34,569 bases of DNA, taken from contig MEDL01000008.1 in the NCBI GenBank assembly GCA_001724785.1, positions 1 to 34,569 on the forward strand, given 5' to 3'. Position 1 is the stretch's first letter, and each line of letters opens with the position of its first letter. The DNA comes from Acidovorax sp. SCN 68-22 (GTDB lineage: Bacteria > Pseudomonadota > Gammaproteobacteria > Burkholderiales > Burkholderiaceae_C). Below, piece by piece: positions 724-33,904 of this stretch. Position numbers and translations under genes: made by a program. Below the pieces are notes generated by a model. The model was not told the DNA's origin. It was given only the letters and a program-made list of their open reading frames with translations, and searched no databases.

Positions 724-726
724 GTG

Positions 727-780
727 CTATTCTTGATATAGCTTCAACCCCTTTATAGACGGGCGCTGGAGCCCAAAAAC
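727..780 (+). repeat. Dispersed ~50-60 bp repeat copy
   Basis: CTATTCTTGATATAGCTTCAACCCCTTTATAGACGGGCGCTGGAGCCCAAAAAC, directly after the DUF192 gene. Confidence 0.6.
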
Positions 781-784
781 ACCC

Positions 785-809
785 AAAAAAAAGCGGCCCG
801 CAGGCCGCT
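785..809 (-). terminator. Rho-independent terminator of sodB
   Basis: On the minus strand AGCGGCC-TGCG-GGCCGCT followed by a run of T's, 23 bp past the sodB stop. Confidence 0.85.
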
Positions 810-1551: not shown

Positions 1552-2862
1552 CTACAGGAGGCGCGGCGGCACCACCGTGAGCTCGAGCGTGCCGTCGGCC
1601 AGGCGCGCGCGCAGGGCGGTGGCGGGCGGCGCCTGGCGCACGCTTCGCACCAGTTCGCCGGCCGGCGTTTGCAGCAGTGCATAACCGCGCTGCAGCACCA
1701 GCGCCGGGTCCAGAAGCTGCAGGCGCAGCGCGGCGCCCGCCAGGCGCTCGCCCCGGCCGGCCAGGTGGGCCGCCGTTTTTTGAGCAAAATTGGCCTCCAG
1801 CGCTTTCAGGTGCTGCGTTTCATGCTGCGTTTTCAGTAGCAACGCGTGCTGCAGGCGCTGCGCCATCCGCGCCAGGCCAAGCTGCTCGCGCTGGGCACGC
1901 TCCGAGGGCCGGCCGAGGCGCGCGCCGGCCTGGTCCAGGCGCTGGTGGCGCAGGTCGAGCTGGCGTTCGAGGGCGCGGCCGAGCCGCACGTCCAGCTGCG
2001 CCAGCGCCGCCAGCGCGGCCTCGCGCGGGGCGGCCACCAGTTCGGCGGCGGCCGTGGGCGTGGGGGCGCGCAGGTCGGCGCAAAAATCGGCGATGCAGAA
2101 ATCGGTTTCGTGGCCCACGCCGCACACCAGCGGCACCGGGCTTTGCACCACGGTGCGCGCCAAGGCCTCGTCGTTGAAGGCCCAGAGGTCTTCCAGCGAG
2201 CCGCCGCCGCGCACCAGCAGGATCACGTCGATGGGGAAGGCCCCGCCCTCGCCCGGCGTGCCGGCGCGGGCATAGAGCTGCTCCAGCGCGCGCACCAGCG
2301 ACTGCGGCGCAAGCGGCCCCTGCACCTGGGCCGGCGCGAGCAGCACCGGAATGTGCGGCGCGCGCCGGGCCAGGGCACTGACCACGTCGTGCAGGGCCGC
2401 AGCACCGAGCGAGGTGACGAGGCCGATGCCGCGCGGCGCGGCCGGCAGCGGGCGCTTGCGCGCCGCGTCGAACAGGCCTTCCTGCTCCAGCCGGGCTTTC
2501 AGTCGCAGGAACTGCTCGAACAAGGCGCCCTGGCCGGCGCGCTGCAGTTGCTCGACCACCAGTTGCAGGTCGCCACGCTGCCCATACACGCCCAGGCGGC
2601 CGCGCAGCTCGACGCTGTCGCCGTCCCGCGGGCTGAAGCCGAGGAGCAGCGCCGCGCGGCGGAACATGGCGCAGCGGATCTGGCCGCCCGCGTCCTTGAG
2701 GTTGAAGTAGCAGTGGCCGCTGGCCGCACGCGAAAAGCCGGAAATCTCGCCGCGCACGGCCACCGGATTGAAGCGCGCCGCGAGGGCGTCGTCGACCGCG
2801 CGGCACAGCGCGCCCACATCCCACACGCGCTCGCCGCCGGGCGCCGGCGCTTGCTCAAACAT
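1552..2862 (-). CDS. xseA: Exodeoxyribonuclease VII large subunit
   Basis: OB-fold N-terminus (VRGEISGFSRAASGHCYFNLKDAGGQIRCAMFR) and catalytic region (LLVRGGGSLEDLWAFNDEALAR...GVGHETDFCIADFCADLRAPTPTAAAE). Confidence 0.97.
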   Translation of the reverse strand: MFEQAPAPGGERVWDVGALCRAVDDALAARFNPVAVRGEISGFSRAASGHCYFNLKDAGGQIRCAMFRRAALLLGFSPRDGDSVELRGRLGVYGQRGDLQLVVEQLQRAGQGALFEQFLRLKARLEQEGLFDAARKRPLPAAPRGIGLVTSLGAAALHDVVSALARRAPHIPVLLAPAQVQGPLAPQSLVRALEQLYARAGTPGEGGAFPIDVILLVRGGGSLEDLWAFNDEALARTVVQSPVPLVCGVGHETDFCIADFCADLRAPTPTAAAELVAAPREAALAALAQLDVRLGRALERQLDLRHQRLDQAGARLGRPSERAQREQLGLARMAQRLQHALLLKTQHETQHLKALEANFAQKTAAHLAGRGERLAGAALRLQLLDPALVLQRGYALLQTPAGELVRSVRQAPPATALRARLADGTLELTVVPPRLL

Positions 2863-4340: not shown

Positions 4341-5345
4341 ATGCCGCCGTTCTGGGCCCAGCGCAGCGCCGCAGGCCTGGCACTGTGGCCGCTGTCCCTC
4401 GGCTACCGCGCCCTGGTCGCCGTGCGCCGGTGGCTGTACCGCGCGGGCTGGCGGGCGCGCACGCGCCTGCCGGTGCCGGTGATCGTGGTCGGCAACGTGG
4501 TCGCTGGCGGCGCCGGCAAGACGCCGGTGGTGATTGCGCTGGTACAGCACCTGCAGGCGCGCGGCCTGCGGCCGGGCGTGGTCTCGCGCGGCTACGGGCG
4601 CCGCAGCCGGGGCACGCAGCATGTGCAAGCGGACAGCAGCGCGCACGCAGTCGGCGACGAGCCGCTGCTGGTGGCGCGCCGCTGCGCGGTGCCGGTGGTG
4701 GTGTCGGAGCGGCGCGGCGACGCCGGGCGCGCCTTGCTCGCGCGCCACCCGGACACCGACGTGATCGTCTCGGACGACGGCCTGCAGCACCTGGCGCTGG
4801 CGCGCGACATCGAGCTGTGCGTGTTCGGCGCCGAGGGCGTGGGCAACGGCTGGCTGCTGCCGGCCGGGCCGCTGCGCGAGCCCTGGCCGCGCGCGGTCGA
4901 CTTCCTGCTGTGCGCCGGAGCCGTTCCGCCGGGCGGCAGCGCCCCCACCTTTGCCCTGGAGCGCCGGCTGGCGGACACCGCCATCGCCGCCGACGGGCGC
5001 CGCGTGCCGCTGGCCGATCTGGCCGGCCAGGCGCTGGTGGCGGTCGCCGGGACGGCCCGGCCGGAGGAGTTTTTCGCCATGCTGCGCGCGCGCGGCCTGG
5101 CGCCGGCGCAGACCTTCGCGCTCCCCGATCACTTTGATTTTGATAGCTGGAACCCCAATACAGACAAGCGCCAGAGGCTTGTTTGCACCGAAAAAGATGC
5201 GCCCAAGCTGTGGCCGCGCTTCCCCGATGCATTGGCCGTCCCGCTGGAGCTGGCCATCGCGCCCGCGTTCTTCGCCGCGCTCGACGAGCGCCTGGCGCAA
5301 ACCGGGCAGCGCCCGCTATCATCGCCCGCTCGCCCCCCCGGCTGA
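4341..5345 (+). CDS. lpxK: Tetraacyldisaccharide 4'-kinase
   Basis: Walker [68 protein letters not shown]. Confidence 0.96.
5133..5183 (+). repeat. Copy of the dispersed ~50-60 bp repeat, embedded in lpxK coding sequence
   Basis: TTTTGATAGCTGGAACCCCAATACAGACAAGCGCCAGAGGC resembles intergenic copies at 727-780 and 29591-29643 (same orientation). Confidence 0.55.
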
Positions 5346-9370: not shown

Positions 9371-9434
9371 TTTTAGGCCAAATAGGCCACCAGCGCTCGG
9401 CCATCATAGGTTCTTAGCTACTCTATCAATAGCT
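9371..9434 (-). repeat. Dispersed ~50-60 bp repeat copy (reverse orientation)
   Basis: TTAGGCCAAATAGGCCACCAGCGCT...TAGCTACTCTATCAATAGCT. Confidence 0.6.
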
Positions 9435-9594: not shown

Positions 9595-10602
9595 ATGAAT
9601 ATCGTGATCCTCGATGATTACCAGGACGCGGTGCGCAAGCTCCATTGCGCGGCCCGTCTCGACGCCCACTCCGCCAAGGTCTACACCAACACCGTGAAGG
9701 GGCTCGGCCAGCTGTCCGTGCGCCTGAAAGACGCCGACATCATCGTCTTGATCCGCGAGCGCACCCACATTTCGCGCCAGCTCGTGGAGAAACTCCCGCG
9801 CCTCAAAATGATCGCGCAAACCGGCCGCGTGGGGGCCCATATCGATATCGGCGCCTGCACCGAGCGCGGCATCGCCATCTCGGAAGGCGTGGGTTCGCCC
9901 GTGGCACCTGCCGAATTGACCTGGGCCCTCGTGCTGGCAGCCATGCGGCGCCTGCCGCAGTACATCGCCAACCTGAAACACGGCGCTTGGCAGCAGGCGG
10001 GGCTCAAGGCCGCCTCGATGCCGGCCAATTTCGGTATTGGCAGCGTGCTGCGCGGCAAGACCCTGGGCATCTGGGGCTATGGCCGCATCGGCCAGATCGT
10101 GGCCGGTTATGGCCGCGCCTTCGGCATGAACGTGCGCATCTGGGGCAGCGAGGCCTCGCGCGCCCAGGCGCTGACCGACGGCTACCAGGTGGCGCCGACG
10201 CAGCAGGAATTTTTCGCCCAATGCGACGTGGTGTCCCTGCACCTGCGCCTGACGGAAGAAACGCAGCAGATGATCACGCTCGAAACACTGTCGTGCATGA
10301 AGCCCACGGCGCTGCTGGTGAACACCTCGCGCGCCGAGCTGATCGAGGCCAACGCCCTGCTCGCGGCCCTCAACCGCGGCCGGCCCGGCATGGCCGCGAT
10401 CGACGTGTTCGAAAGCGAGCCGATCCTGCAGGGCCACGCGTTGCTGCGCCTGGAGAACTGCATCTGCACGCCGCATATCGGCTACGTGGAGCAAGACAAC
10501 TACGAGCTGTACTTTGGCTCGGCCTTCGACAACGTGCTCAACTTCATACGCGGCACGCCGACGAACATCGTCAATCCGGGTGCGCTGCAGGTGCGGCGCT
10601 AA
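9595..10602 (+). CDS. D-2-hydroxyacid dehydrogenase family protein
   Basis: MNIVILDDYQDAVRKLHC; GKTLGIWGYGRIGQIVAGYGRAFGMNVRIWG; NTSRAELIEANALLAALNRGRPGMAAIDVFESEP; CTPHIGYVE. The upstream in-frame start at 9475 looks spurious. Confidence 0.92.
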   Translation: MNIVILDDYQDAVRKLHCAARLDAHSAKVYTNTVKGLGQLSVRLKDADIIVLIRERTHISRQLVEKLPRLKMIAQTGRVGAHIDIGACTERGIAISEGVGSPVAPAELTWALVLAAMRRLPQYIANLKHGAWQQAGLKAASMPANFGIGSVLRGKTLGIWGYGRIGQIVAGYGRAFGMNVRIWGSEASRAQALTDGYQVAPTQQEFFAQCDVVSLHLRLTEETQQMITLETLSCMKPTALLVNTSRAELIEANALLAALNRGRPGMAAIDVFESEPILQGHALLRLENCICTPHIGYVEQDNYELYFGSAFDNVLNFIRGTPTNIVNPGALQVRR

Positions 10603-20279: not shown

Positions 20280-21767
20280 TTACAGCAGCACGATGTCGTA
20301 CTGTTCCTGCCCCATGGCGCCCTCGGCCTGCAGCGAGATGGGCTTGCCGATGAAGTCCGACAGCCCGGCCAGGTGCGCGCTTTCCTCATCGAGGAAGAGC
20401 TCGACCACGGCGGCCGAGGCGATGACGCGGAATTCGCGCGGGTTGAACTGGCGCGCCTCGCGCAGGATTTCGCGCAGGATGTCGTAGCACACGCTGCGCG
20501 CCGTCTTCACGCTGCCCTTGCCCTGGCAGGCCGCGCAGGGTTCGCACAGCATGTGCGCCAGCGACTCACGCGTGCGCTTGCGCGTCATCTCGACCAGGCC
20601 CAGGTGCGAAAAACCGCCCGCCATGGTCTTGACGCGGTCGCGCGCCAGGTGCTTGCGGAATTCGGCCAGCACCGCGCCCTGGTGCTCGGCCTGCACCATG
20701 TCGATGAAATCGACGATGACGATGCCGCCGAGGTTGCGCAGGCGCAGCTGCCGGGCAATGGCCCCGGCGGCCTCCAGGTTGGTCTTGAAGATGGTGTCGT
20801 CGAAATTGCGCGCACCGACGTAGCCGCCGGTGTTCACGTCGACGGTGGTCAGCGCCTCGGTCTGGTCGATGATGAGGTAGCCGCCGGACTTGAGGTCCAC
20901 GCGCCGGCCGAGTGCGCGCGCGATCTCTTCGTCCACCGCATACAGGTCGAAGATCGGGCGCTCGCCCTTGTAGTGCTGCAGCTTGCCCGCCGCCGCCGGC
21001 ATGAATTCCTGGCCGAAAGCGCGCAGGCGCTGGAACTGCTCCAGCGAATCGATGCGGATGCTCTGCGTGTGCTCGCCGACCAGGTCGCGCAGCACGCGTT
21101 GCAGCAGGTCCAGGTCCTGGTGCAGCAGCGTGAGCGGTGGCTGGCGCAGCGCCGCGTCCTTGGTGCGCAGCCAGGTCTTGCGCAGGTAGGCGATGTCGTC
21201 GGCCAGTTCGGCATCCGACGCATCCTCGCCATTGGTGCGCAGGATGAAGCCGCCCCCGCCGCCCGAGGCCTTGTCGCCCACCAGCGCCTGGAGCCGCGCG
21301 CGCAGCGCCTCGCGCTCGCCAAGCGGGATCTTCTGCGACACGCCGACATGCTCGTCCTGCGGCAGGTAGACCAGCAGGCGCCCGGCGATGCTGATCTGCG
21401 TGGACAGGCGCGCGCCCTTGGTACCGATCGGGTCCTTGATGACCTGCACCATCAGTGCCTGGCCTTCGAACACCTGGCGCTCGATCGGCACCTGTGGCTC
21501 GCTTCGGCGCGCCAGGGCGCCGGCGTCCCCCTCAGGGTGGCGCTGCCAGACGTCGGCCACGTGCAGGAAGGCGGCGCGCTCCAGGCCGATGTCGATGAAG
21601 GCCGACTGCATGCCCGGCAGCACGCGCGAGACCTTCCCCAGGTAGACGTTGCCGACCAGGCCGCGCTCGAGCGTGCGCTCGACGTGCAGTTCCTGCACCG
21701 CGCCGTGCTCGACCACGGCCACGCGCGTTTCCTGGGGCGACCAGTTGATCAGGATGTCTTGTTGCAT
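20280..21767 (-). CDS. rng: Ribonuclease G
   Basis: [74 protein letters not shown]; CxxC pair [11 protein letters not shown]. Confidence 0.96.
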
Positions 21768-22384
21768 GGCGAGGCGGTCCATCCGGCGGCGCGCAGCAGC
21801 TGCGCGGTCTCAAACAGGGGCAGGCCCATGATGCCCGAATAACTGCCGCGCAAGACGGGAATGAAGGCGCCCGCGCGCCCCTGCACCCCGTAGGCCCCCG
21901 CCTTGCCGAGCGGCTCGCCGGTGGCGACGTAGGCAGCGATGTCCGCCGGGCCGAGCGGTGCGAAGCGCACGCTCGAGACCGACAGCGCCGCCAGCCGCTT
22001 GTTGCCGACCTGCAGCGCCACGGCGGTGAGCACGCGGTGCGTGCGGCCGGAGAGCTCGGCCAGCATGCGCGCCGCGTCGCTCGCGTCGAGGGGCTTGCCA
22101 TAGATGCGCCGTCCCAGCGCCACGGTGGTGTCGGCGCACAGCACCGGCGCGTCCGGCAGCTGGCGGCGCGCGCGGCGCGCCAGCGCGGCGTCGAGCTTGA
22201 GCCCGGTCACGCGCTCGACGTAGGCGGCCGGCGCCTCGCCCGGCAACTGCGCCTCCAGCGCCTCGCTGTCCTCGGCCTCGTCGCCGGGCGCGTTCGGCAG
22301 CAGGGGCTCGTGGCGCACTCCGAGCTGGTCGAGCAGTTGGCGGCGGCGCGGGCTTTGCGAGGCGAGGTAGAGGAAGTCGGGCAT
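21749..22384 (-). CDS. Maf family nucleotide pyrophosphatase
   Basis: [66 protein letters not shown]; overlaps the rng start. Confidence 0.96.
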
Positions 22385-22431
22385 GGCGGCCAGGGCGCTT
22401 TCAGGGCAATGGGAAGGGCGGAATTTTGAAC

Positions 22432-22480
22432 GAAATTGACCTCTCGCGCTTATCCCATAAGTGTTTATAGCTATGAAAAC
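22432..22480 (-). repeat. Dispersed ~50-60 bp repeat copy
   Basis: GAAATTGACCTCTCGCGCTTATCCCATAAGTGTTTATAGCTATGAAAAC, between maf and rlmH. Confidence 0.65.
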
Positions 22481-22517
22481 AGGAATATGCGCACCCCGTG
22501 GCGTGCCGCGCCGGCCC

Positions 22518-22985
22518 CTATTCGCGGTGGTAGGGGTGCCCGGCGTTCACCGACCAGGCGCGGTAGAGCTGCTCGATGAGCAGCACGCGCACCATGGCAT
22601 GGGGGAGCGTCAGGTCCGACAGGCGGATGCGCTCGTGCGCGCTCTGGCGCAGCGCCGGCTCCAGCCCGTCCGGGCCGCCGATGACCAGTGCCACGTCGTC
22701 GCCGCCGAGCTGCCAGCCCTTGAGGCGCTCGGCCAGGGCCTTGGTCGTGAGGCTGGTGCCGCGCTCGTCGAGCACCACCATGCGCGCGCCTTTGGGGATC
22801 GCCGCGACGATGCGCTCGCGCTCGGCGGCGTAGAGGGTTTCCAGCGTCTTGGAGCCGCGTGGCTCGGTCTTGACCGCCTTGAGCTCGACCTTGAGTTCGG
22901 GCGGAAAGCGCTTGGCGTAGTCTTCGTAGGCGGTTTGCGCCCAGTCGGGCACGCGCTGGCCCACCGCCACGATGAGCAGCTTCAT
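22518..22985 (-). CDS. rlmH: 23S rRNA (pseudouridine-1915-N3)-methyltransferase
   Basis: [90 protein letters not shown]. Confidence 0.97.
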
Positions 22986-22997
22986 GGGCGGGCCGGG

Positions 22998-23732
22998 TCA
23001 GGCCTTGCTGGCGCGGCCGGCGGCCTTCTTGGCAGCGGGCTTGGTGGCCTTGGCGGCCGGTTTGGAGGCCGGAGCAGACTTGCCGGCAGCCTTCTTGGCG
23101 ACCGGCTTCTTGGCGGCGGGCTTGACCACCAAGGTCTTGATGGCCTTCTTGGCGGCGGGCGCCTTGGCCTTGGTGGCCGGGGTCTTGGCGGCCGGCGCCT
23201 TCTTCACGGCCGGCTTGGCGGCGGCAGTGGCAGTCTTTGAGGGGGCGGCCTTGGCCGGCGCCTTGGGCTTGCCGGGCAGGCGCGCGGGCACCTCGGCCAC
23301 GGCGGGGGCCTTCTTCTTCACGGCGGCCTTCTTGGCCGGCGCGGGTTTGGCGGCGCCGAGCTTGAGGCGCACCGGCAGCTCGCCCCACAGGTCTTCCAGC
23401 CGGTAGTACTGGCGGATGGTCGGCTGCATGATGTGCGCCACGGCGGCGCCGCAGTCCACGATGATCCATTCGCCGTTGTCTTCGCCTTCCACGCGCGGCT
23501 TGGGAAAACCGGCCTCCTTGACCTTGCCCTGCACGCTGGTGGCCAGCGCCTTGGTCTGGCGGTTCGACGTGCCCGAGGCGACGATGACGCGCTCGAACAG
23601 CGGCGAGAGGTGCTCGGTGTTGAACACCTGGATGTCCTGCGCCTTCACGTCTTCAAGGCCATCCACGATGGCGCGCTGCAGTTTGGCGACGTCTTTCTTG
23701 GCGGCGGATTCCGAGGTCTTGGAGGTGGTCAT
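22998..23732 (-). CDS. rsfS: Ribosome silencing factor RsfS with ~115-120 aa histone H1-like Lys/Ala/Pro-rich C-terminal extension
   Basis: RsfS core ...IVDGLEDVKAQDIQVFNTEHLSPLFERVIVASGTSNRQTKALATSVQ...DNGEWIIVDCGAAVAHIMQPTIRQYYRLEDLWG, followed by PAPAKKAAVKKKAP...KPAAKKAAGRASKA. Confidence 0.95.
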   Translation of the reverse strand: MTTSKTSESAAKKDVAKLQRAIVDGLEDVKAQDIQVFNTEHLSPLFERVIVASGTSNRQTKALATSVQGKVKEAGFPKPRVEGEDNGEWIIVDCGAAVAHIMQPTIRQYYRLEDLWGELPVRLKLGAAKPAPAKKAAVKKKAPAVAEVPARLPGKPKAPAKAAPSKTATAAAKPAVKKAPAAKTPATKAKAPAAKKAIKTLVVKPAAKKPVAKKAAGKSAPASKPAAKATKPAAKKAAGRASKA

Positions 23733-23828: not shown

Positions 23829-23890
23829 ATTTGAATGAAATAGGCCGCCAGCGCTTTACCATCAAGCGCCTTCAGCTACTGAAATTATAG
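23829..23890 (-). repeat. Dispersed ~50-60 bp repeat copy
   Basis: TTTGAATGAAATAGGCCGCCAGCGCTTTACCATCAAGCGCCTTCAGCTACTGAAATTATAG, between rsfS and hemF. Confidence 0.65.
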
Positions 23891-23919
23891 CGATTCGGTG
23901 TTGCAACAGCGCCTTCGCT

Positions 23920-24855
23920 TCACACCCAGTCGCGCGGCACGAGGAAATGCTCCGCCAGGCGCGCCTCGGGCGAGCCCTCTTCGGGCGTGCGCTGGTAGGC
24001 CCAGCTGGCCAGCGGCGGCATCGACAGCAGGATGGATTCGGTGCGCCCGCCCGACTGCAGGCCGAAGTGCGTGCCCCGGTCCCAGACCAGGTTGAATTCC
24101 ACGTAGCGGCCGCGGCGGTAGAGCTGGAAATCCCGCTCGCGCTCGCCATAGGGCGCGCCCTGGTGCTTTTCAACGATGGGCAGGTAGGCCGGCAGGAAGG
24201 CATCGCCCACGGCCTGCGTCATGGCCATGCTGCCCGCCAGGCCCAGCTCGGAAAAATCGTCGAAGAACACGCCGCCAACGCCGCGCTGCTCGCCCCGGTG
24301 CTTGAGGCGGAAATACTCGTCGCACCAGCGCTTGAAGCGCGGGTATTTGTCGTCGCCAAAGGGGGCCAGCGCGGCCCTGCAGGTCTGGTGGAAATGCACC
24401 ACGTCGGCATCGAAGCCGTAGTAGGGCGTGAGGTCCATGCCGCCGCCGAACCAGCACACGGGCTCCTGGCGGGGGTGACCGGCCGCGATCATGCGCACAT
24501 TCATGTGCACCGTCGGCACGTAGGGGTTGCGCGGATGGAACACCAGCGAAACTCCCATGGCCTCAAAGGGCGCGCCCGCCAGTTCGGGCCGGTGCTGCGT
24601 GGCGGACGGCGGCAGGCGCGGCCCGCGCACGTGCGAGAAGCCGCAGCCGGCGCGCTCGAACACGCGCCCGCCTTCGATGATCTGGGTGATGCCGTCGCCC
24701 TGCAGCAGCTCGTCCGCACCTTTGCGCCACGGGTCCACCAGCACCTGGGCGCCGCCCTCGCCGTCGTCCTCGATGGCCTGCAGCGCGCCCATGATGCGCG
24801 CCTGCAGGCCCAGCAGGTATTCGCGCATGGCGCTCGCTTGCGGTGCCGCGCTCAT
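23920..24855 (-). CDS. hemF: Oxygen-dependent coproporphyrinogen III oxidase
   Basis: [76 protein letters not shown] overlap with purD. Confidence 0.97.
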
Positions 24856-26931: not shown

Positions 26932-28452
26932 ATGGCTGACCCTCTGCTGATCGCTAAAAACGGCCCCACCGAATGCTTTTTGCTGCCGGGCCTGGCCAAC
27001 CGGCACGGGCTGATCACCGGCGCCACCGGCACCGGCAAGACCGTGACGCTGCAAAAGCTCGCCGAGCAGTTCTCGGCCATCGGCGTGCCGGTGTTCATGG
27101 CCGACGTCAAGGGCGACCTGACGGGCATCAGCCAGCAGGGCAGCGTGCCCGAGAAGCTCGCCGGCGTGCTCAAGGACCGGGGCCTGCCCTTGCCCGAGCC
27201 GGGCGCCTGCCCCACCACGCTGTGGGACGTGTTCGGCGAACAGGGCCACCCGGTGCGCGCCACCATCACCGACATGGGGCCGCTGCTGCTCGGGCGCATG
27301 CTCGATTTGAACGACACCCAGCTCGGCGTGCTGAACCTGGTGTTCAAGATCGCCGACGACAACGGCCTGCTGCTGCTGGACCTGAAGGACCTGCGCGCCA
27401 TGCTCACCTACGTGGGCGACAACGCCAAGCAGTTCACCACCGAATACGGCAACGTGAGCGCGGCCAGCATCGGCGCCATCCAGCGCGGGCTGCTGCAGAT
27501 CGAGAGCCAGGGCGGCGACCAGTTCTTCGGCGAGCCCATGCTCGACATCAACGACCTGCTCCAGACGGTGAACGGGCGCGGGGTGGTGAACATCCTCGCC
27601 GCCGACAAGCTGATGAACGCGCCGCGCCTGTACGCGACCTTCCTGCTGTGGATGCTCTCCGAGCTGTTCGAGCAGCTCCCTGAAATCGGCGACCCGGAGA
27701 AACCCAAGCTGGTGTTCTTCTTCGACGAGGCGCATTTGCTGTTCAACGACGCGCCCAAGGTGCTCATCGAGCGCATCGAACTCGTGGTGCGCCTGGTGCG
27801 CTCCAAGGGCGTGGGGGTATATTTCGTCACGCAGAACCCGCTCGACATCCCCGACAGCGTGCTCGCCCAGCTGGGCAACCGCGTGCAGCACGCGCTGCGC
27901 GCCTTCACCCCGCGCGATCAGAAGGCCGTGAAAGCCACGGCCACCACCATGCGCCAGAAGCCGGGGCTGGACATCGAGGCCGCGATCACCGAGCTCGCCG
28001 TCGGCGAGGCACTGGTCAGCCTGCTCGACGCCAAGGGGCGCCCGAGCATCACCGAGCGCGTGTACGTGCTGCTGCCGGGCAGCCAGCTCGGCCCGATTTC
28101 GCCGCAGCAGCGGCGCGCGCTGCTCGCGCAGTCGCTGGTGGCGGGCGTGTACGACACACCGGCCGACCGCGAATCGGCCTACGAAAAGCTCAAGGCGCGC
28201 ACCGCCGAGGTGGCGGCGCAGGCGCCGGCGGCCAAGGGCGGCGCGGCGCAGACGCAGGAAGGCGGCGAAGGCGGCGGCCTGCTCGGCGGGCTGAACGACG
28301 TGCTCTTTGGCAGCACCGGGCCGCGCGGCGGCCGGCGCGACGGCCTGGCGCAGACCATGGCCAAATCGGCCGTGCGCACCATGGGCACCAGCCTGGGCCG
28401 CGAAATCCTGCGCGGCGTGCTGGGCAGCGTGTTCGGCGGGCGCAAGCGCTAG
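26932..28452 (+). CDS. HerA-like helicase/ATPase (DUF853, YjgR-like)
   Basis: [109 protein letters not shown]. Confidence 0.95.
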
Positions 28453-28720
28453 GGCCTGTTCACACTATTTTTGCCAGATGCATTGCGATCAAGAAAGGCC
28501 GGGCGCTAGGCGCCAAACGAAGCTGGGGTGCGGCCCCAGCGAGGCTTGGCAACGCCGCGCATGGCCTTTTTTGATCGCAATCCGAAGGAAAGGCCGGTCA
28601 AACCGCGCCACTCGTCGTTGCGTTCCTAGCCAAGGCCCCGGCCTTGGCGTCGTCGCGCGCCTTGATTGGCGCGGTTTGACCGGCCTTTGCACTGGCAAAA
28701 ATAGTGTGAACAGGCCCTAG
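28449..28720. mobile_element. MITE-like/foldback element: 29-bp perfect terminal inverted repeats enclosing two nested hairpin modules, no coding capacity
   Basis: CTAGGGCCTGTTCACACTATTTTTGCCAG (28449-28477) is exactly inverted at 28692-28720. Hairpin A arms 28482-28500/28563-28581 (18/19), hairpin B arms 28589-28610/28667-28688 (22/22). CTAG at both outer ends. Confidence 0.8.
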
Positions 28721-28729
28721 CACTCTGCC

Positions 28730-29581
28730 ATGCAAACCACCCCCGCGACGCACACCATCACCGGCTTTGAATTCGGGCTGCTGCGGCTTTCTGGCCTGCT
28801 GGTGCCCCTGGCCATTGCGCCGTGGGTTGTCGCCCTGATCGGTGTGCCGTTCGGCTGGTGGGAGCCCGAGGGACGCTGGGTCGTCTATCTGATCTGCACT
28901 GCACTGGCCGTCCTGGGCGCCCGCCGCTGGACGCTCGCCGTGCGCGAGCGCTTCGTGCGCGAAGCCGCCTTGCCGCAACTGCTCAAGCGCAAGCTGCGCG
29001 ACGCGTATCCGCTCCTGACCGCCAAAGATGCCGATCTGGCCGAGCGCGGCCTGCGCCAGTTCTTCTTGGCCTGTCTGCGCAGCAACAGAAATTTCGTGGC
29101 TGTCCCCTCGCACGCGGTGGGCGCCCTGTGGAGCGCCTTTTCTCAGGATTCCGAGTCCTATCGGAACTGGTGCCAGAACGCCCTGGGTTACGCACCCGAC
29201 TATTCACCCGCGCATGTGCTGGGCAAGAAAGCCTCGAACAACGATGCGCTGCGCCGTGCCTGGTACTGGGCCTGCAAAGACGAGGCCATCGATCCGCGCA
29301 AACCCAGCCGCCTGCCCCTGCTGTTCGCGCTGGACGCCAAACTGGCCATTCCCGACGGTTTCTACTATGCCCCCGCCCCGCCGGTCGGCGCCCAGCCCGG
29401 CCGCGACCCCCATGCCGCTGTCACGCTGCACTTTGGCACCAGTTTTTCGGACAGCAGTCACTCCGGCCGGTTTCAGGATTTTGGAGGCTCCGAGCGTTCG
29501 GGCGGCAAGACCAGGGACAGGCGTGCGGATGATGGCGGTGAAGGTGATTCCAGCAATGCTGAAGATGACAACGAAGATTGA
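28730..29581 (+). CDS. Membrane-anchored protein with a GRDP (glycine-rich domain-containing protein)-like domain
   Basis: Two N-terminal TM segments, then RGLRQFFLACLRSNRNFVAVPSHAVGALWSAFSQDSESYRNWCQNALG...PLLFALDAKLAIPDGFYYAP, resembling the VD-xx-WHxFIL-x-T-xx-Y-xx-FC pattern of GRDP-like proteins; Ser/Gly/Asp-rich tail. Confidence 0.6.
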   Translation: MQTTPATHTITGFEFGLLRLSGLLVPLAIAPWVVALIGVPFGWWEPEGRWVVYLICTALAVLGARRWTLAVRERFVREAALPQLLKRKLRDAYPLLTAKDADLAERGLRQFFLACLRSNRNFVAVPSHAVGALWSAFSQDSESYRNWCQNALGYAPDYSPAHVLGKKASNNDALRRAWYWACKDEAIDPRKPSRLPLLFALDAKLAIPDGFYYAPAPPVGAQPGRDPHAAVTLHFGTSFSDSSHSGRFQDFGGSERSGGKTRDRRADDGGEGDSSNAEDDNED

Positions 29582-29590
29582 GCCATCAAC

Positions 29591-29643
29591 ATTTATAGCT
29601 ACAAAGGACCAATTCACAAGCGCTGCGCCGGATTTTCTTTGCC
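29591..29643 (+). repeat. Dispersed ~50-60 bp repeat copy
   Basis: ATTTATAGCTACAAAGGACCAATTCACAAGCGCTGCGCCGGATTTTCTTTGCC. Confidence 0.6.
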
Positions 29644-29727
29644 AAAATGGCGGCTCCACCTAGGATGATTCCCAGTGTGACGCCTGCGCTGACGGCAAGA
29701 AGCCAAGCACGTTCCAAGGACACCAAC

Positions 29728-30708
29728 ATGAACGCCTGGCCCCACCTGATTGCACCCACCAACCACGATGTTGTGGAGGCCGCCCAACGGCTCAAAGGCA
29801 TCGCGCACCGCACGCCGGTGCTGCGCTCGAACACGGCCGACGAAATCCTGGGCGCGCAGGTGTTCTTCAAGTGCGAGAACCTGCAGCGCAGCGGCTCGTT
29901 CAAGTTCCGCGGCGCCTACAACGCGCTGGCGCAGCTCTCGCCCGAGCAGCAGGAGCGCGGCGTGCTCACCTTCTCGGCCGGTAACCACGCCCAGGCCATT
30001 GCACTGGCCGCGCGCCTGCTCGACATCCCCGCGCTGGTGGTCATGCCGCACGACGCGCCAACGACCAAGATGGCCGCCGCGCGCGCCTACGGCGCCCAGG
30101 TCGTCACCTACGACCCGCTCAATGAGGACCGCGAAGCCATCAGCCGCAAGCTCTCGCAGGAGCGCGGCATGCTGCTGGTGCCGCCCTCGGACAACGCCGC
30201 CGTGATCGCCGGCCAGGGCACGGCCGCGCTGGAGCTGATCGAGGAAGTGCCCCGACTGGACGTGCTCTTCGCCGGCGTGGGCGGCGGCGGCCTGCTGGCC
30301 GGCAGCCTGCTCGCCACCAAGGCGGCGCTGCCGCTGTGCCGTGTCTATGGCGTCGAACCCGAGGTCGCCAACGACGGCCAGCAGTCGCTGGCGTGCGGCG
30401 AGATCGTTCAAATCCCGTGGCCGCGCAGCACCATTGCCGACGGCGCGCGCGCCACGGCGCTGGCGCCCCTGGCCTTCGACATCCTGCAGCAGGGCGCCGA
30501 GGGCATCGTCACCGCCAGCGACGCGCAGCTGATGGAGGCGATGCGCTTTTTCGCCGAGCGCATGAAAATCGTCGTCGAGCCCACCGGCGCGCTGGCACTG
30601 GCTGGAGCACTGCACGGTGGCTGCGACGTGCACGGCGCGCGCGTGGGCATCGTCATCAGCGGCGGCAATGTCGACCTGCCGCGCTACGCCCGCTTCCTGT
30701 CAGATTGA
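29728..30708 (+). CDS. Threonine/serine dehydratase family (PLP fold type II)
   Basis: FFKCENLQRSGSFKFRGAYNAL (PLP lysine); TFSAGNHAQAIALAARLL; FAGVGGGGLLAGSLL; VISGGNVDLPRYARFL. Confidence 0.93.
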   Translation: MNAWPHLIAPTNHDVVEAAQRLKGIAHRTPVLRSNTADEILGAQVFFKCENLQRSGSFKFRGAYNALAQLSPEQQERGVLTFSAGNHAQAIALAARLLDIPALVVMPHDAPTTKMAAARAYGAQVVTYDPLNEDREAISRKLSQERGMLLVPPSDNAAVIAGQGTAALELIEEVPRLDVLFAGVGGGGLLAGSLLATKAALPLCRVYGVEPEVANDGQQSLACGEIVQIPWPRSTIADGARATALAPLAFDILQQGAEGIVTASDAQLMEAMRFFAERMKIVVEPTGALALAGALHGGCDVHGARVGIVISGGNVDLPRYARFLSD

Positions 30709-31394: not shown

Positions 31395-32207
31395 TCAGTC
31401 CTTGAACACCGGCACCTGCTTGGCCATGCTGGCCGTCATCGCCGCCGTGAGGTCCTGGCTCATCAGCATGGCCGCATTCCAGGTGGCGATGTAGTTCAGG
31501 CTGTCGGCCACCGAGTGGTCGCGGGCGTAGGTGATCATTTCCTTGGTGCCGCGGATCGACAGGGGCGACTTGGCGGCGATGGTGGCGGCCATATCGTGCA
31601 CACCGGCATAGAGCGCCTCACGGCTCTCGAACACGCGGTTCACCAGGCCGATGTTCTTGGCCTCTTGCGCGTCGAACTTGCGGCCGGTGTACGCCAGCTC
31701 GCGCACGATACCCTCACCCACCAGCTTGGGCAGGCGCTGCAGCGTGCCGACGTCGGCGGTCATGCCGATGTCGATTTCCTTGATGGTGAAGTAGGCGTCG
31801 CTGCTGGCGTAGCGCATGTCGGCGCAGGTGACGAGGTCGATGCCGCCGCCGATGCAGCCGCCGTGGATGGCCGCGAGCACGGGCTTGCGGCAGCGCTCCA
31901 GGCTGGTGAGCGTGTCCTGCAGGTCGAGGATGACGCGGCGCAGCGCTTCCCGCGTGCGGCCGTCGCAGTCGTTCTGGATCTGCGGGGCGAGGCCCATCAT
32001 CATCTGCAGGTCGATGCCGGCGGTGAAGAGCTTGCCTTCGCCTTGCAGCACGGCCACGCGGGCCTCGGGGGTGGCGTCCACCCACTCGAAGGCCCGGCGG
32101 ATCTCCTGCCACATGGTGGCATTCATGGCGTTGGCCTTGTCCGGGCGGTTCAGGCGCACGGTGGCGATGTGGTCTTGCAGCGAGACGGCGAGGGTTTCAA
32201 ATTGCAT
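31395..32207 (-). CDS. Crotonase/enoyl-CoA hydratase family protein
   Basis: VRLNRPDKANAMNATMWQEIRRAFEWVD; GKLFTAGIDLQMMMGL; KPVLAAIHGGCIGGGIDLVTCADMRYAS. Confidence 0.94.
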   Translation of the reverse strand: MQFETLAVSLQDHIATVRLNRPDKANAMNATMWQEIRRAFEWVDATPEARVAVLQGEGKLFTAGIDLQMMMGLAPQIQNDCDGRTREALRRVILDLQDTLTSLERCRKPVLAAIHGGCIGGGIDLVTCADMRYASSDAYFTIKEIDIGMTADVGTLQRLPKLVGEGIVRELAYTGRKFDAQEAKNIGLVNRVFESREALYAGVHDMAATIAAKSPLSIRGTKEMITYARDHSVADSLNYIATWNAAMLMSQDLTAAMTASMAKQVPVFKD

Positions 32208-32227
32208 GGAAGGCTCCGGTTTCAAGT

Positions 32228-32285
32228 GTTTTAGGCCTCTAGCGCTTATCTGGTAAGCGTTAGTAGCTATTAATTAAATAGTTAT
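32228..32285 (-). repeat. Dispersed ~50-60 bp repeat copy (clear example)
   Basis: GTTTTAGGCCTCTAGCGCTTATCTGGTAAGCGTTAGTAGCTATTAATTAAATAGTTA; inner palindrome AGCGCTTATC-TGGTAAGCGTT. Confidence 0.7.
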
Positions 32286-32289
32286 CCGA

Positions 32290-33849
32290 TCAGATTTTCG
32301 TGCCCGTCGCGGCGGCTCGCCACTGGCGCGCAAGGTCGGCAGGGTTCCATGGGGCATCGGTGTTCACGGTCAGTGCCAGCGCCTGCTCCTGCGCTGTCAG
32401 CGGTTCGGCGGTGCGCTGCTGCGCTGCCAGTACGGCCAGGCCGGCCTCGGACGGGTCGCCTCCAGCCGCAAGGCGACTTTGCACACGCGCTTGCAGTTGT
32501 GGCTCGCCGGCGTGGCAGTGCAACACGGTGAAGGGCACGCCCAGGGCCTGCGCCACGGCATGCATGTGGGCGCGATCGCTCTGGCGCAGGAAGGCGGCAT
32601 CGACGATCACCGGGTAGCCGGCCTGCAGCACCGCGCGTGCCCGCTCGGCCAGGTGCTCAAAGGTGCGCTGCGAGGCCTCGGGCGTGTAGATATCGGCGCC
32701 TCGGGCAGCCGAGTCGGCCAGTGGCGCCAGGCCATGCAGGCGCTTGCGCTCCACGTCCGAGCGCAGGCGCACGGCGCCGGCCTGGGCCAACAGGGCAGCG
32801 GCGACGGTGGATTTGCCCGAACCCGACAGACCATGGGTAATGAGCAAGCGCGGCTGCAGGGGCTGGGCCAGCGCCTCGACGCAGGCCAGGTAATCGGGCC
32901 CGCACGCCAGCGCCCCACCCTGCTCGGCGCGCAGCCGCGCCGCCAGCGCGCGCACCAGGGCGCGGTAGATTTCGTAGGGGCGCAGCACGGCCAGTGCTGC
33001 GTAGTCGCCGGTTTCGCTCAGGTAGGCATCCAGAAAGCGCCAGGCCAGATCGGAACGGCCGTGGGCATGCAGGTCCATGGTGAGAAACGCGGCGTCTGCC
33101 AGGGTGTCGATCCAGCGGAGGGCCGGACTGAACTCGATGCAGTCAAAGGCGGTGAGCACGCCCTCCAGCCGCACCAGGTTGCCCAGGTGCAGGTCGCCAT
33201 GGCCCTCGCGCACATGGCCGCCCGCCTGGCGCTGTGCCCACCATCCTTCCAGCCCGGCAAACGCCGGGCGCAGCGCCTGCAGCCGGGGCGCATCGGCACC
33301 GTCCAGCAGCGTTGCCAGGGTTTCGAATACATCGCCAATGGTCTGCTGCACCTGGGCGGCGCTGCCCCACGCACCACCGGCAGCCGCCACCGGGCAAGCC
33401 GCATGAAAGTGCGCAAGCTGCCTGGCAAAACGCTCCAGCTCGGCCGCGTGCAACGCGCCACTGCGCACCAGGGCATCGGCCTCGCTGCCGCTGGGGAAAC
33501 GGTGCATGTGCACCACCCAGTCGATGGCACCGTCTGCCGCTTCGTTCGGCGCGCCCAGGCGCGGCGCCTGCACGCTGCCCAGCACCGGCAGCACCTCCAG
33601 GTACAGCGATGGCGCCAGCCGCCGGTTCAGGCGCAGCTCTTCTTCACAAAAATGGCGGCGCGCGGCCACGCTGCTGAAATCGGCAAAGGGCAGCCGCACC
33701 GGCCTCTTGAGCTTGTAGGCATGCGCGGGCGTGAGCAGGATGTGCGAAATATGGGTCTGCACATGCGCCACGGGCAGGCCATCGCGCTGCTGGAGCATCG
33801 GCACCAGGCCGCTCAGCAAAGCGTCGTCCGCATGGTTCACAAGGCTCAA
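32290..33849 (-). CDS. Bifunctional aminoglycoside phosphotransferase-like / AAA ATP-binding protein
   Basis: N-terminal kinase-like part (VREGHGDLHLGNLVRLEGVLTAFDCIEFSPALRWIDTLADAAFLTMDL) and C-terminal P-loop part (LLITHGLSGSGKSTVAAALLAQAGAVRLRSDVERKRLHG). Start uncertain (TTG at 33849 or GTG just downstream). Confidence 0.9.
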   Translation of the reverse strand: MSLVNHADDALLSGLVPMLQQRDGLPVAHVQTHISHILLTPAHAYKLKRPVRLPFADFSSVAARRHFCEEELRLNRRLAPSLYLEVLPVLGSVQAPRLGAPNEAADGAIDWVVHMHRFPSGSEADALVRSGALHAAELERFARQLAHFHAACPVAAAGGAWGSAAQVQQTIGDVFETLATLLDGADAPRLQALRPAFAGLEGWWAQRQAGGHVREGHGDLHLGNLVRLEGVLTAFDCIEFSPALRWIDTLADAAFLTMDLHAHGRSDLAWRFLDAYLSETGDYAALAVLRPYEIYRALVRALAARLRAEQGGALACGPDYLACVEALAQPLQPRLLITHGLSGSGKSTVAAALLAQAGAVRLRSDVERKRLHGLAPLADSAARGADIYTPEASQRTFEHLAERARAVLQAGYPVIVDAAFLRQSDRAHMHAVAQALGVPFTVLHCHAGEPQLQARVQSRLAAGGDPSEAGLAVLAAQQRTAEPLTAQEQALALTVNTDAPWNPADLARQWRAAATGTKI

Positions 33850-33904
33850 ATCGGCTCCAAACGCTTTCCAGGCCAGCGCGGAAAGCTATCAAGACAATGA
33901 ATTT
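33848..33904 (-). repeat. Degenerate copy of the dispersed repeat at the start of the APH/AAA gene
   Basis: AAATCGGCTCCAAACGCTTTCCAGGCCAGCGCGGAAAGCTATCAAGACAATGAATTT aligns with the clearer copy at 32228-32285. Confidence 0.45.

Follow-up and report, generated by a model that had tools for sequence, protein, structure and literature searches.

The element described here has its closest known counterparts in the REP/BIME sequences of E. coli and Pseudomonas, hundreds of short imperfect palindromes that lie mostly outside genes, at gene ends and in convergent gaps, and in both orientations (PMC1525189). Gyrase, DNA polymerase I and IHF bind to REPs (PMC1525189), whose definition requires a tetranucleotide, GTAG or CGTC, in front of the palindrome (PMC8266576). 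The REPINs of P. fluorescens SBW25 are non-coding repeats made of inverted REP pairs that RAYTs mobilise, and go together with a single-copy RAYT gene (PMC3116915). A further dispersed intergenic repeat, the BRE of Bordetella, is 75-91 bp long with ~69% GC, stands in tandem arrays and has been reported in Bordetella and some Comamonadaceae (PMC3110155).

Our element shares the numbers, placement and double orientation of REP/BIME. However, it carries no GTAG or CGTC tag at the foot of its inverted repeat on either strand (column table), its ~68 bp are multipartite with invariant spacing, no BIME mosaics were seen, and it is held at the same sites across genera, even within coding sequence. It is best read as REP-like in distribution but not a REP by definition. 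As with REPINs, it is a non-coding repeat in genomes with a single-copy RAYT gene, which a copy adjoins in some genomes; unlike them, it is not an inverted REP pair, no current movement was seen, and the conserved hairpins flanking RAYT here have another sequence. A REPIN identity was rejected because near-identical copies are missing (in five genomes the most similar paralogues are 0.80-0.86 identical). Identity with the BRE was likewise rejected on comparison with its description, as both GC and layout differ: the present consensus has 37% GC, copies usually stand singly, and the pattern has no match in the 292 genomes sampled from the order's other families. The matS sites offer a different parallel; they are 13 bp long, number about two dozen, are confined to the terminus region and are read by MatP. 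They have in common with our element many conserved, register-sensitive inverted half-sites, as for a DNA-binding protein, whereas the element is ~68 bp long, exists in hundreds of copies and shows no replication polarity, a possibility dismissed on the full match list of one genome, G093 (runs test, z=-1.4).

The window, by which we mean the whole stretch of 34,569 nucleotides analysed from Acidovorax sp. SCN 68-22, holds seven clear and two degenerate copies, as detected with a profile derived from the genome's own copies. The copy under study (32221-32282, plus strand, 49.8 bits) lies between genes for an enoyl-CoA hydratase (31395-32207, minus) and an AAA ATPase (32290-33840, minus). At 725-788 (minus, 36.4 bits), a copy separates a convergent DUF192 gene (241-723, plus) and Fe/Mn superoxide dismutase gene (832-1449, minus), both neighbours being assigned by Pfam. 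The copy at 9371-9434 (plus, 43.3 bits) is intergenic, upstream of a gene for a 2-hydroxyacid dehydrogenase (9595-10602, plus); that at 22422-22484 (plus, 44.6 bits) stands between a maf-like gene (21749-22384, minus) and a SPOUT methyltransferase gene (22518-22985, minus); and that at 23829-23892 (plus, 48.3 bits) is downstream of hemF (23920-24828, minus) and upstream of a gene at 22998-23732 (minus). Two copies lie inside genes and antisense to them: 1778-1842 (plus, 38.3 bits) in xseA, which encodes the exonuclease VII large subunit (1552-2862, minus), and 5130-5193 (minus, 38.2 bits) in lpxK (4341-5345, plus). The degenerate copies are at 29591-29639 (minus, 16.7 bits), between genes at 28730-29581 and 29665-30708 (both plus), and at 33846-33892 (plus, 10.1 bits), beside the start of the AAA ATPase gene. 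Both are supported by higher-scoring orthologous sites in congeners, namely 24-28 bits in G460 and G450 for the former and 34.7 bits in G459 and G466 for the latter.

The original prediction of a dispersed repeat family with about eight copies in the window is thus borne out in its essentials: family members occupy all eight listed places, six of them at 36-50 bits (725, 5130, 9371, 22422, 23829, 32221) and two weakly (16.7 and 10 bits), although the ninth copy in xseA (38 bits) had been missed. The length of 50-60 bp given there was too short. Aligned copies from many genera show no gaps across a unit of ~68 bp, AAATTTnnAGnCAAATTGGCCTCYAGCGCTT-n7-AAGCGCTnGnAGCTATnAATTTnATAGC, whose full consensus, from 298 copies mutually <80% alike, is AAATTTTGAGTCAAATTGGCCTCTAGCGCTTATCCATCAAGCGCTAGCAGCTATTAATTTAATAGCAA; the blocks GCGC, AAGCG, AGCTA and TAG are the most strongly conserved. 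The core consists of two inverted half-site pairs, AGCGCTT-n7-AAGCGCT and AGCTATT-n5-AATAGC. Direct, model-free counts in 1.21 Mb show how rigid this layout is: GCGCTT-n-AAGCGC occurs at 52 sites with n=7 and at no more than 3 with any other n from 0 to 20, AGCGCTT-n17-AGCTA at 89 sites against 0-4 at other lengths, and AGCTA-n9-TAG at 104 sites against 0-6. Indels of +/-1 are absent from the spacer despite strong divergence of its bases.

Genome-wide, the family is clearly enriched. We found 55 copies (E<1e-3) in 412 kb of the own genome, or one per 7.5 kb, which extrapolates to ~390 copies in the 2.94-Mb genome (a fragmented assembly, 78% complete), while the same 412 kb reversed gave no profile match at all. 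A pattern of 36 bases, allowed at most 3 mismatches, matches 125 times in the 2.94-Mb assembly and never when it is reversed. The same pattern occurs in 36 of 151 genomes of the own family (maximum 519 matches) and is missing from all 292 genomes sampled in the order's other families, in agreement with the original statement that similar sequences are common in Comamonadaceae intergenic DNA; a wider sequence model extends the range to 55 of the 151. Among the sampled genomes of the order, the element hence occurs in Comamonadaceae only, its carriers including Acidovorax, Simplicispira, Ottowia, Paenacidovorax, Giesbergeria, Diaphorobacter and others. The number of strict matches differs widely within genera (448 versus 19; 232 versus 15), which is odd for an essential site and counts against the reading as a protein site that we favour below. 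On plasmids the element is rare (five records), and phage sequences gave no match. In the open-access literature we found no account of this element in Comamonadaceae.

Some copies reside in integrons. G390 has a chromosomal integron (L303, 2193-16485; integrase TIGR02249, 462 bits) in which a ~320-bp non-coding leader containing the element recurs among the cassettes, giving thirteen copies in one orientation. A single copy in a class 1 integron of the Citrobacter freundii plasmid NZ_CP154589.1 (L304, 3001-3049), with an aminoglycoside acetyltransferase cassette on one side and an IS481-family transposase gene on the other, is probably a captured Comamonadaceae cassette.

Copies had been described as mostly following stop codons or lying between genes, and this is largely so: seven of the nine in the window do, and 69% of 185 stop-codon distances fall within -20 to +35 bp; the copies at 1778 and 5130, inside xseA and lpxK, do not fit. 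In five genomes the element is mainly extragenic (35 of 200 copies inside genes), and it occupies 38 of 94 convergent, 107 of 408 tandem and 9 of 131 divergent intergenic regions (convergent versus divergent, p=1e-9); these placement-class counts are approximate, since genes were called with a simple hexamer caller. Both orientations are used, as predicted, on the two strands of the window and, relative to transcription, at random (51 sense to 58 antisense in tandem pairs). The spacing of copies is more regular than chance would give in the own genome (CV 0.59, p=0.001) and in G445 (CV 0.68, p=0.01); no such regularity is seen in G466, G313 and G390.

Once in place, the element stays there. 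Position and orientation of the 22422 copy are kept in 14 of 15 congeners, and those of the 32221 copy in all four congeners that retain both flanks. Across 130 orthologous sites (33 loci, with regions chosen independently and flanks 85% identical), 125 have the element in the same orientation (122 at >15 bits, 3 at 5-15 bits), none has it in the opposite one and 5 lack it. Orthologues diverge by 0.18 at conserved columns and by 0.47 at variable ones, a ratio of 0.37 (95% 0.28-0.46). At the variable columns, orthologues resemble each other more closely than paralogues do (identity 0.526 versus 0.34), which indicates vertical descent; in conserved columns the two are equal (0.822 versus 0.824), and this points to turnover of conserved letters under stabilising selection or constraint.

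The copies within genes show that the constraint acts on DNA. Each of the 15 congeneric xseA genes that were compared has a match at identical codons (9.6-39.8 bits), as do 18 of 20 congeneric lpxK genes, the matches being gapless in both cases and, in lpxK, leaving the gene length unchanged. Third-position GC drops within the element segment, to 0.59 from 0.85 outside it in xseA and to 0.53 from 0.80 in lpxK, and synonymous recoding with the genes' own codons rarely attains the observed motif score (p<=0.0005 in 15 of 15 xseA genes; p<=0.0015 in 18 of 20 lpxK genes). In 14 element-free genera, by contrast, none has the element in xseA, the segment is as GC-rich as its surroundings (0.83 versus 0.83), and its length is the same in 13 of 14. 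Other element-bearing genera have a match at these xseA codons in 12 of 16 genomes, some of them weak (11.8-15 bits); with the own genome added, 7 of 17 exceed 15 bits. Given the matches at the same codons, the depressed GC3 and the element-free alleles of equal length, we conclude that the motif is maintained as DNA and that no insertion is needed to account for it there.

A base-specific, register-rigid, orientation-indifferent double dyad is best explained by a sequence-specific protein acting on double-stranded DNA. We therefore read the element as a Comamonadaceae-specific, genome-wide double-stranded-DNA site for a putative sequence-specific protein or complex, with a probability of roughly 0.6; its conservation is base-specific, register-sensitive and in place, as is characteristic of protein sites. 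Of the three candidates offered by the original prediction, a nucleoid-type DNA-protein site is accordingly the one we favour. The putative protein would read the ~68 bp base by base and in a fixed register on double-stranded DNA, and the two inverted half-site pairs of the core suggest that it is probably dimeric. Most sites are found at gene ends, with convergent gaps as the preferred place and divergent promoter regions nearly free of them. Such a placement points to a function in supercoiling, roadblocking or the structure of the nucleoid. The element may thus be a chromosome-organising or transcription-boundary site where transcription units end, acting perhaps through supercoil relief, as a roadblock or by nucleoid-protein loading. 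Such roles have been proposed for REPs, and the effect could be comparable with that of E. coli REP/BIME sites, to which gyrase, DNA polymerase I and IHF bind (PMC1525189).

The strongest competing explanation, which we nevertheless consider unlikely, is that a REP-like non-autonomous element was spread by the resident single-copy RAYT and is now mostly immobile, its placement at 3' ends reflecting tolerated insertions. A single-copy RAYT gene, which the original prediction had proposed to look for, is indeed present: 116 of the 151 genomes of the family have a match (PF01797), and these include 38 of 40 element-rich genomes against 78 of 111 others (p=0.0009, kinship ignored). Furthermore, the element stands at the 3' end of RAYT, always in sense orientation, in 7 of 20 genomes, against 21 of 156 other genes (p=0.02), and its genomic distribution matches that of REPs (PMC1525189). 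On the other hand, the palindrome lacks the REP tag, G408 and G371 are element-rich without a RAYT match, and all 3' flanks of RAYT conserve another signature, GGGGACAG/GGGGTCAGA, which is present in element-free genomes too and was not found in 412 kb of the own genome. No copies >0.90 identical exist in any of five genomes, and the element is present in xseA and lpxK without extra length. The evidence for RAYT as mobiliser is suggestive only, and there may be a historical link between the two. As a present mechanism, the mobilised REP/BIME once put forward does not agree with the lack of near-identical copies, the fixed positions and orientations, the gapless copies in genes and the missing tag. 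A MITE was likewise discarded: none of 192 orthologous comparisons shows a clean empty site, the 14 orthologous sites without the element have no clean insertion junction, and element-free alleles are of equal length.

At RAYT loci (L085-L104, L283-L302), the 3' flank TGTCCCCAATTA...AATTGGAATCTGACCCCAATTA is strongly conserved across the family and is not dispersed in the own 412 kb. G447 (L241), the sole congener without the element at the 22422 orthologue, has a classic REPIN-like palindrome pair, GTAGGTCGGGTTAGC...GCTAACCCGACCTACA, in its stead. In the window, 28445-28724 is a MITE-like insertion at the end of the gene 26932-28452, with terminal inverted repeats of 33 bp, GGGCCTGTTCACACTATTTTTGCCAG, enclosing ~214 bp, and with CTA/TAG flanks; terminal repeats of a similar kind, GAACCTGTTCACGGTCTTTTCATG, bound an insertion beside the 23829 orthologue in Acidovorax sp. 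210-6 (L233). Orthologues of 23829-23892 are mostly degenerate, the left half having decayed in most species while AGCTAnnGAAATTATAGC is retained. Read on the minus strand, the latter includes TATAAT and precedes the gene 22998-23732, for which it is possibly a co-opted promoter.

Improbable, and more so than mobilisation by RAYT, is an RNA element at mRNA 3' ends, a stem-loop serving as terminator or mRNA stabiliser. Its appeal is that copies abut stop codons and that the core is an inverted repeat, and stem covariation seemed apparent by eye; it vanished when 298 non-redundant copies were counted, nearly all stem pairs being paired as often as independence predicts. At pair 28/50, for instance, the commonest combinations are TA (88), CA (72), CG (42) and TG (41), with 57.4% paired against 56.8% expected, and a specified two-helix structure is paired only slightly more often than shuffles, at 60.2% against 59.3% (76 sequences, with the second helix out of register). 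RNAalifold predicts three base pairs, with a folding term of -0.65 kcal/mol. Neither the covariation nor the orientation bias suggested as checks by the original prediction was found, which leaves the mRNA 3' stabiliser unsupported; the spacer is invariant in length, unlike loops, and the element has neither a U-tract nor an Rfam match. No intrinsic terminators were called at window copies from 20001 onward. Ordinary intrinsic terminators occur at 12.5% of convergent gene ends with the element versus 20.4% without it; element-bearing ends are not significantly poorer in them (p=0.22), and the idea that the element replaces terminators was dropped. Missing covariation alone cannot rule out a reader of single-stranded hairpins, since E. 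coli REP recognition is sequence-specific and does not tolerate compensatory stem changes (PMC8266576). Against such a reader, the evidence from within genes and from position weighs more.

That the copies are neutral remnants left by an old burst of a mobile element would agree with their age (mean paralogue identity 0.58-0.62, none >0.90), yet it is highly improbable, because relics should decay equally in all columns, whereas conserved ones diverge 0.37 times as fast, synonymous codons are bent to retain the motif, and the highly diverged spacer has no +/-1 indels. The divergence ratio between the two column classes already contradicts such relics, unless a biased gene conversion acts to restore the conserved columns alone. 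We give equally little credence to ectopic gene conversion, which would keep the family alike without functional selection and might put a copy into a gene at unchanged length, as it copies whole tracts while the variable columns keep a memory of their locus (0.526 versus 0.34) and the conserved ones do not exceed the paralogue level.

Repeats dispersed in bacterial genomes are usually taken for DNA that moves or decays. The hundreds of copies described here have a fixed place and orientation across species, are constrained base by base, and are kept in two conserved genes by means of unusual synonymous codons. We regard it as an evenly balanced proposition that they form a previously undescribed, chromosome-wide site system of Comamonadaceae, in which several hundred fixed positions carry a rigid, multipartite ~68-bp motif that is read by a putative protein. 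On this view, selection keeps the motif far longer than intergenic DNA lasts, and the motif can be present in genes without insertion and override codon choice. Should a protein indeed read these copies, this would be a new system of DNA binding at chromosome scale, and the element itself is a ready bait for finding that protein. The family also offers a clean case for the old question of whether REP-like repeats have a function at gene ends.
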